The notes under the pieces were generated by a model. The model did not search any database. It was not told where the DNA came from and saw nothing but the letters and a program-made list of their open reading frames with translations. A program made the translations under genes and the position numbers. 53,856 nt of DNA from Prevotellaceae bacterium (GTDB taxonomy: Bacteria > Bacteroidota > Bacteroidia > Bacteroidales > UBA932): assembly GCA_031269545.1 (NCBI GenBank), contig JAISYZ010000204.1, positions 1 through 53,856 of the forward strand. Direction: 5' to 3'. Shown in pieces: positions 14,791-16,417 of the stretch (positions within the stretch are counted from its first letter, which is position 1; each line of letters begins with the position of its first letter).

Positions 14791-14930
14791 AAAATGCAAT
14801 AAAAACAGGTTATTCCGACAGGATCTATAACAAAAATGGTCTTTGACATTATGAGTTTACACGCTGTTGACAATTAGTAATTAGCAATTAATAACGAAAA
14901 ATCCGAAGGATTGATATTGCTGTAGAAACG

Positions 14931-14980
14931 CGAAACATCCATATTCACAACGCGCGGGTTGCTGTCGATGACATGAAACG
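14931..14980. repeat. 50-bp direct repeat, copy 1 (left of the Abi gene)
   Basis: cgaaacatccatattcacaacgcgcgggttgctgtcgatgacatgaaacg, identical to 16262-16311. Confidence 0.95.
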
Positions 14981-15076: not shown

Positions 15077-16008
15077 CTATTGCCAAATGAGTTCTTTTTC
15101 CCAATTATTGAGGAACCCAAGTTTGTAAACAGGAATATTGATATTATTTCGAAACAGATTTAATAATTTATTTTTTATTTCATTGTTTGGGTTTATGGCA
15201 TTGCAGAGATAAACCATAGCTGTAATAATGAGAAATGGCTTTTTTTCCTGCACTTGTTTTATTTCGTTTTGTAACCATTGATTACGCGGGTTTTTGGGCG
15301 AGGCAGGGGCTTTATCATATTTCTACTCCATACTCTTGAATGGTGAGCAATAATATTGCGTATGTACGATATTGCTTCCAGCCAACTTGATAATTCGCTA
15401 TGCAAATTCAATCCAAATTCGTTGGCTATATGAGATTTTTGTGGTAACTGGTGTTTAAGATTTTTGTAAATTTTTGAGAGTGTGCCAAAGGTAGCAACTT
15501 CAAAAATTATCCACACATCAGGATTGACACTACTTATCCAGATAGATGTATCTTCACTTTCTGTTGGGTGTTTTGTACGAAAATTTTTTGCAAATATTTC
15601 ACCACTTCTGGCAAATTCGGTTTTAAGTTCTTCTATTTGGATTTTGTGTAATTTGTTATTTTCAAACAATGTATCGTCTAAGTACCATAAGCCTCCGTAT
15701 GCCTGCGAAAGGTGATAGATGAATTTGGTGCGAAAGGCTATTTCAATAAACTCAATTGCATCAAAAAGTACCAATCTCAATTGACGGTCAAAGTTGTAAA
15801 GATTAATAACATCTTCAAAATATGAATTAGGCGCGAAAATATGATTAATTCGGTCGGTTTGCATATCCCACCAATATCCTTTCAAACGATAATAACTGAT
15901 ATAATTTAAATAAAAAGCCGCTTTTTGTTCGTCTTTAATCAACATCCCTCTTGATTTCAGTAGGGCTATTTGTTCTTCAATCGTTCTTGAATCTTTATTG
16001 GTTGTCAT
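15077..16008 (-). pseudogene. Abi_2 (AbiD/AbiF-like) abortive-infection protein, apparently frameshifted near the C-terminus
   Basis: The 15259-16008 ORF carries 'LLKSRGMLIKDEQKAAFYLNYISYYRLKGYWW...LYNFDRQLRLVLFDAIEFIEIAFRTKFIYHLS...YIRNIIAHHSRVWSRN'. A different frame continues to 15077 as 'APASPKNPRNQWLQNEIKQVQEKKPFLIITAMVYLCNAINPNNEIKNKLLNLFRNNINIPVYKLGFLNNWEKELIWQ*'. Confidence 0.8.
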
Positions 16009-16010
16009 TT

Positions 16011-16103
16011 ATAAAAAATGACCCGCCTGCAGTTCTTACGGTATGCAAAACGGGTACTGTTATCTTTAACCGAAACTAAGTCCGTATAGTTACCTTTGTT
16101 TTC
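16011..16103 (-). ncRNA. Candidate structured RNA upstream of the Abi gene (abiF-RNA-like)
   Basis: Minus strand: TTTG-N20-TACCTTTG promoter, then RNA with GGUA(A)CU/AGUACC and UUAG/UUAA helices and an ACCCG...CGGGU-CAUUUUUU terminator-like end directly before the ATG. Confidence 0.5.
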
Positions 16104-16108
16104 AACTG

Positions 16109-16116
16109 CAAAGGTA
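16109..16116 (-). promoter_or_regulatory. -7 element TACCTTTG driving the candidate RNA and Abi gene
   Basis: Reverse complement of caaaggta; TTTG -33 box 20 nt upstream. Confidence 0.7.
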
Positions 16117-16261
16117 TAAATATTTTAGAAATAAAGCAAATAAAAAGAAATATTTTGAAGAAAAAGTATAGATATGATAATATGGCATTATGATGAAGTT
16201 ATCAGAATATTATACCAAACACGAGAAATATTCCGTCAGGAATTATCGCTCGGTAAAAATC

Positions 16262-16311
16262 CGAAACATCCATATTCACAACGCGCGGGTTGCTGTCGAT
16301 GACATGAAACG
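16262..16311. repeat. 50-bp direct repeat, copy 2 (right of the Abi gene)
   Basis: Identical to 14931-14980. Confidence 0.95.
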
Positions 16312-16417
16312 AATTAATTATCAATTGATAATTAGCAATTAATAACTATAAACAAATAAACAATCAAACCTTACAACATTACAAACTTTTAACTGAATAA
16401 ATAAAAATGAAAAAATT

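Follow-up and report, generated by a model that had tools for sequence, protein, structure and literature searches.

CRISPR-Cas13 has been proposed to descend from the AbiF toxin family. In Clostridioides difficile, the RNA RCd22, which lies upstream of abiF, is an abundant transcript of ~100 nt that ends at or before the terminator, and it binds AbiF and neutralizes the toxin both in cis and in trans (PMC12373285). A second described system is the PbAbiF-AbiFr complex (PDB 8VZ6; Zilberzwige-Tal et al. 2025), in which AbiFr is reported to inhibit the HEPN RNase (PMC12373285, PMC12737573) and the PbAbiF R210/H215 double mutant is reported to be inactive (PMC12373285).

We analyzed a 53,856-nt stretch of DNA from a Prevotellaceae bacterium (GCA_031269545.1, contig JAISYZ010000204.1), the whole of which is called the window here, and identified an RNA directly 5' of an Abi_2 gene, a place that the RNA also occupies in dozens of relative loci. 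The following features were annotated:

16137..16140, minus strand: promoter -33 element TTTG of the Bacteroidota type, from direct reading
16109..16116, minus strand: promoter -7 element TACCTTTG, from direct reading
16013..16104, minus strand: predicted ~90-nt RNA in its long form, with the start inferred from the promoter and the end from the U-tract
16071..16084, minus strand: 5' accessory hairpin CGGA/UUCG, from half-swapping covariation, in the Bacteroidales long form only
16057..16069, minus strand: conserved single-stranded linker UUAAAGAUAACAG, from alignments
16021..16055, minus strand: core hairpin ACCCG...CGGGU, also the terminator stem, with 11 consensus pairs
16029..16046, minus strand: near-invariant loop element GCAUACCGUAAGAACUGC, from invariant and nearly invariant alignment columns
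16013..16018, minus strand: intrinsic-terminator U-tract, from direct reading, kept in nearly all relatives
15259..16008, minus strand: Abi_2 (AbiD/F) HEPN toxin gene, 249 aa, from profile matches
15288..15298, minus strand: CCCAAAAACCC, the frame-change site in the toxin ORF, downstream of the catalytic motif, from translation comparison
15077..15287, minus strand: C-terminal part of the Abi protein in the other frame, similar to the C-termini of three relatives (L032, L033, and L036)

The 49-nt hairpin with its U-tract makes up the 3' half of the ~90-nt RNA, and the ATG of the Abi gene (16008-16006, minus strand) follows shortly 3' of the U-run. The arrangement resembles that of RCd22 and AbiF in the C. 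difficile prophage phi027, where the RNA also lies upstream of abiF with its own promoter and a terminator before the gene; however, RCd22 has a distinct terminator 3' of its two abiF motifs, whereas the window RNA has one motif whose own hairpin is the terminator (PMC12373285). The protein was matched to PF07751 (E 2.3e-53) and to the PADLOC AbiD profile (E 9.4e-59), and its catalytic motif, RNIIAH, spans R217-H222 (RxxxxH). PbAbiF (PDB 8vz6) is a homologous toxin (E 4.8e-35) with R217/H222 aligned to R210/H215, although it is only distantly related and was compared here by protein alone.

The RNA feature is real. We aligned 80 homologous loci from bacterial genomes at the Abi start, nearly all of them from Bacteroidota and one from Ignavibacteriota, with further loci for alignment taken from 300 genomes of the same family as the window. 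The position of the RNA is shared by homologous Abi genes throughout Bacteroidota. The promoter proposed in the initial annotation, TTTG-N20-TACCTTTG, was read directly at 16140-16137 and 16116-16109 on the minus strand, and the RNA sequence quoted downstream of it was confirmed in the same way. TAnnTTTG was present 5' of the RNA in 73 of 79 homologous loci (shuffled-sequence mean, 5.8), and the layout with 20 nt between TTTG and the -7 box recurred in 43 of the 79 (shuffled mean, 0.18). The distance from promoter to RNA was 3-5 nt in 46 loci and 35-51 nt in 27 loci, and these fixed distances suggest a transcription start of its own for the RNA rather than mere leader sequence. There are thus 2 predicted forms of the RNA, a short one of ~50 nt and a long one of ~90 nt, and the window RNA is of the long form. 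An inverted repeat, TACCTTTG...CAAAGGTA, was also noted at 16091-16116, where it overlaps the -7 box, with none seen in the relatives inspected.

The final ~50 nt 5' of the gene were strongly conserved (AACAGUACCCGyu..GCAUACCruAAGAwCUGC..GCGGGUCAUUUUUU). Among 36 distinct cores, 95.3% of cells of the 11-pair core stem were paired, with both-sided changes in 7 pairs (31 cells), and covariation in homologous loci, which had been named as a check on the RNA, scored 0.281 versus 0.109 for shuffles (0/500), with slid registers reaching at most 0.082. The terminator-like end that had been placed just before the ATG is represented by the U-run at 16018-16013 and a hairpin that is both conserved and covarying. 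The core hairpin covaries across the alignment, and the 5' hairpin covaries in Bacteroidales relatives. In their long form, the 5' hairpin has no fixed sequence, its arms being GGAC/GUCC, GGGC/GCCC, GCAG/CUGC, GUGG/CCAC, GUAG/CUAC, and others, and it is followed 3' by a conserved linker similar to UUAAAGAUAACAG. Its mean folding energy in these relatives was -6.2 kcal/mol versus -3.6 (sd 0.48) for swapped halves (0/300), a gap indicating that the hairpin is maintained, and the window copy, at -2.8 kcal/mol, was the weakest of the set. Minimum free energy was unremarkable over the full 94 nt (z -0.05), the core being just mildly low (z -1.76), and since it is not unusual by itself, the case for the RNA rests on conservation. 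The UACGG/CCGUA pseudoknot that had been considered possible was rejected as not conserved, since only 3 of the 19 relatives with the 5' part had a match to CCGUA and RNAs devoid of that part conserve the loop to the same degree.

We compared the RNA with the Rfam abiF family, RF03085, as the initial annotation had advised, and the model gave no match at its gathering score (37 bits) or up to E=10 in 551 nt, nor any match in the whole window genome. The 2 share a short hairpin RNA directly 5' of Abi_2/AbiF genes, a C/G-rich outer stem, a short inner stem, and a conserved loop, with a U-tract 3' at abi loci. They differ in the loop and inner stem, which read GCAUACCRUAAGAWCUGC here and AAGCCUCUCAACGAUGCUCAAA in Rfam, and in the long form of Bacteroidales with its extra 5' hairpin. 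For the new class we built a covariance model, R1, only from bacterial abi-linked sequences, and it matched 5' of nearly every close Abi relative, including the window at 16061-16013 (77.5 bits, E 2.3e-17, with the window sequence being in the training set). R1 also matched, weakly yet end to end, 2 RNAs of the RF03085 type, one of them 5' of Abi in L031 (23.8 bits, E 0.0015) and the other in L028 (17.7 bits, E 0.067), and an RNA of the CGCUUCCCAUAAGAACAGCG type 5' of Abi in L018 (24.9 bits), which represents Abi loci at about 40% protein identity. Judged from the sequences, it is suggestive, not proven, that the new class, the CGCUUCCCAUAAGAACAGCG type, and RF03085 are subclasses of one abiF RNA superfamily in which the class follows the toxin clade. 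Of the 2 possibilities first raised, a variant of the abiF RNA agrees with the Abi_2 linkage, the stem covariation, the near-invariant loop, and the R1 bridge of 23.8 bits, and a regular member does not agree with the missing RF03085 match. The interpretation that fits best is that of an abiF RNA antitoxin variant spread throughout Bacteroidota, which forms a new class by the public RNA library.

We consider it highly probable that the unit represents the RNA side of a type III-like toxin-antitoxin locus of the AbiF type, in which a protein is the toxin and an RNA the antitoxin, with the hairpin acting as both toxin ligand and terminator. Against this reading stand the lack of an RF03085 match, the broken toxin frame of the window, and several bacterial copies that have no neighboring Abi gene. 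The promoter, the covarying hairpin with its conserved loop, the linkage to Abi_2, and the catalytic motif are all observed at this locus. Because the toxin is homologous and the RNA has an equivalent position and architecture, the most likely mode of action of the window unit is that of its relatives, from which RNA binding, inhibition, and premature termination would carry over by analogy. One promoter would then drive a ~90-nt RNA ending in the conserved hairpin, and that hairpin would both bind the Abi toxin and be the intrinsic terminator before the toxin gene. Most transcripts would stop at the hairpin and supply an excess of antitoxin, occasional read-through would yield toxin mRNA, and the RNA would keep the HEPN ribonuclease inactive by forming a complex with it, up to the point where the RNA disappears or is titrated away. 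Antitoxin action by direct binding is known for RCd22 (PMC12373285), and the window RNA may share it by analogy. A U-tract 3' of the hairpin and just before the ATG would also suit an RNA that merely attenuates or leads the abi mRNA in cis, with a hairpin that stops transcription until a signal arrives and no antitoxin role in trans, and RCd22 too terminates transcription in cis (PMC12373285). However, a plain terminator does not need the near-invariant 18-nt loop element, and the solitary phage and bacterial copies described below have no abi gene to attenuate, so we regard the attenuator as improbable.

The antitoxin reading concerns what the RNA is; whether this particular copy is active depends also on the toxin gene. 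The ORF is 249 aa in the window, with relatives open to about 300 aa, and this frameshift means that the window copy may be inactive, so that in this genome the toxin was possibly lost and the RNA kept. Programmed -1 frameshifting, for which C CCA AAA fits a slippery heptamer, was considered, and because the relatives inspected read straight through the site, mutation or an assembly error is likelier than slippage. The frame change at 15298-15288, together with toxin-less copies of the RNA in related genomes, would fit a decaying remnant whose RNA persisted by chance or because it protects from other AbiF toxins. Against this, the genome is a draft of 248 contigs, where an assembly error may account for a one-base change next to a short run of A, and the remainder of both frames is well conserved; we hold a remnant to be a real possibility that falls somewhat short of an even chance, and one that bears on the activity of the window copy and not on the identity of the RNA. 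The Abi unit is flanked by a direct repeat (14907-14980 / 16238-16311, 86% over 74 nt) and by a second repeat of 31 nt (14871-14901 / 16322-16352), and other contigs of this genome hold related copies; the unit may lie between copies of a dispersed repeat.

Among the 300 same-family genomes, we identified 21 RNA matches, with 1 being the window, 10 others having an adjacent Abi gene, about 3 cut by contig ends, and about 7 having no recognizable Abi gene or a fragment only. The frameshifted toxin of the window is consistent with an antitoxin that survives longer than its toxin. The bacterial loci L248, L276, L284, and L288 have the RNA but no intact Abi gene, and Porphyromonas uenonis (L041) had 2 copies 1.8 kb apart (1436 and 3235).

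We searched viral contigs for the core pattern CCCG-N1-8-CATMCCRTWAGAWCTGC, with the reversed loop as a control, and 56 contigs matched the pattern versus 0 for the control. In 55 of the 56, the match was genuine, with a recognizable hairpin and nearly always a U-run, and the remaining one (L128) was a chance match. R1 scored the viral copies at up to 73 bits (E 3e-16). Because MAFFT misplaces a gap when aligning the phage cores, pairs were counted by register, in 17 distinct viral cores from IMG/VR and 1 from Dulem virus 42 (18 in all); of 126 stem positions, 118 paired versus 99.9 with swapped arms (0/5000), and the outermost pair was kept in 18/18 cores versus 11.6 (0/5000). An ordinary intrinsic terminator that resembles abiF RNA by chance would be compatible with the unremarkable folding energy, but it is contradicted by the conservation tests, namely, the phylum-wide conserved loop, the compensatory changes, and the 56 viral matches against none for the reversed loop, leaving it a negligible chance of being right.

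Only in L135, among the 55 genuine viral contigs, did an Abi gene adjoin the RNA. Abi_2 was absent from 21 of 22 viral records with the new-class RNA (up to 150 kb, some of which may be fragments), with L135 again the only one to have it, and the complete 99.7-kb genome of Dulem virus 42 had one copy of the RNA and no Abi_2. The solitary RNA was found in about ten unrelated phage gene contexts (L112-L167, L242), with neighbors including a T4-type head maturation protease, a gp32-like protein, an Rz-like spanin, a ribonucleotide reductase with an exonuclease, and a NinI-like phosphatase that has a large tRNA cluster alongside. In T4-like phages the copy follows the head-protease gene, and elsewhere copies adjoin other genes for structure, replication, and lysis or lie within or next to tRNA clusters. 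In one T4-like carrier, the capsid was 65% identical to a Flavobacterium phage capsid, which makes Bacteroidota plausible as the phage hosts. The isolated phages most closely related to the T4-like carriers among those characterized, Flavobacterium phage immuto and Microcystis phage Mel-JY01, had no copy of the RNA, so carriage is patchy. In T4-like phages (L113, L115, L118, L123, and relatives), a second hairpin lies 5' of the RNA, with a stem that varies and a loop that is fixed (GCCUGCUACCUUAGGC, GUCUGCUACCUUAGAC, ACCUGCUACCUUAGGU).

Other abiF RNA classes were identified in phages as well. The CGCUUCCC type was present in 19 viral contigs and the RF03085 type in 55, with an Abi gene detected by the queries in one and two of these, respectively. 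In a second search, covering 25 viral contigs with other abiF classes and Dulem virus 42, 23 of the 26 records (up to 267 kb, some of which may be fragments) had no Abi_2. Copies of these 2 classes (L168-L241) were solitary in many phages and often lay beside tRNA genes, with several between or next to them, and some of the CGCUUCCC type (L168, L169, and relatives) had a rebuilt outer stem, GTGCCAGACA...TCCCAGGTTTGGAC.

On balance, we lean toward the view that solitary AbiF antitoxin RNAs are widespread in phages, belong to at least three sequence classes, and serve as decoys that bind the AbiF ribonuclease and hold it inhibited during infection. A decoy is the simplest explanation because the copies share no neighbor gene, their variable stems stay paired, and their loop is that of the RNAs of host toxins. 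Alternatively, the phage copy may be a phage terminator with a borrowed loop, may bind another host protein, or may be the remnant of a lost toxin-antitoxin unit, the last of which is spoken against by its repeated occurrence in unrelated contexts. There is a precedent for the decoy in the pseudo-ToxI of phage PhiTE, a mimic of a type III RNA antitoxin that allows escape from abortive infection by ToxIN (PMC3475682). It is likewise a phage-borne RNA antitoxin without a toxin, although the toxin and RNA families are different and the PhiTE repeats resemble ToxI repeats (PMC3475682). An RF03085 sRNA was annotated in the lytic cyanophage S-CREM1, with no mechanism proposed (PMC9964418); this is a single case of the Rfam class, whereas the new class is invisible to Rfam. 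Further, a DNA region of lactococcal phage sk1 protects phage 712 from AbiF, according to the title of Rince 2000 (PMC12737573). The sk1 genome had no abiF RNA by the Rfam model or R1, and the decoy idea is thus neither supported nor refuted by it. No paper proposing abiF RNA decoys was found in the literature searched, a scope that excluded Zilberzwige-Tal 2025 and the source paper of the Rfam family, so that priority is uncertain.

The results extend abiF RNA antitoxins to a Bacteroidota-wide class missed by the public RNA library, with the special feature that the antitoxin hairpin would double as the terminator before the toxin. If the solitary phage copies are decoys, phage mimicry of RNA antitoxins, known from few cases, would be common and recognizable by sequence, and it would represent a widespread RNA-based counter-defense against the proposed ancestral toxin family of Cas13.
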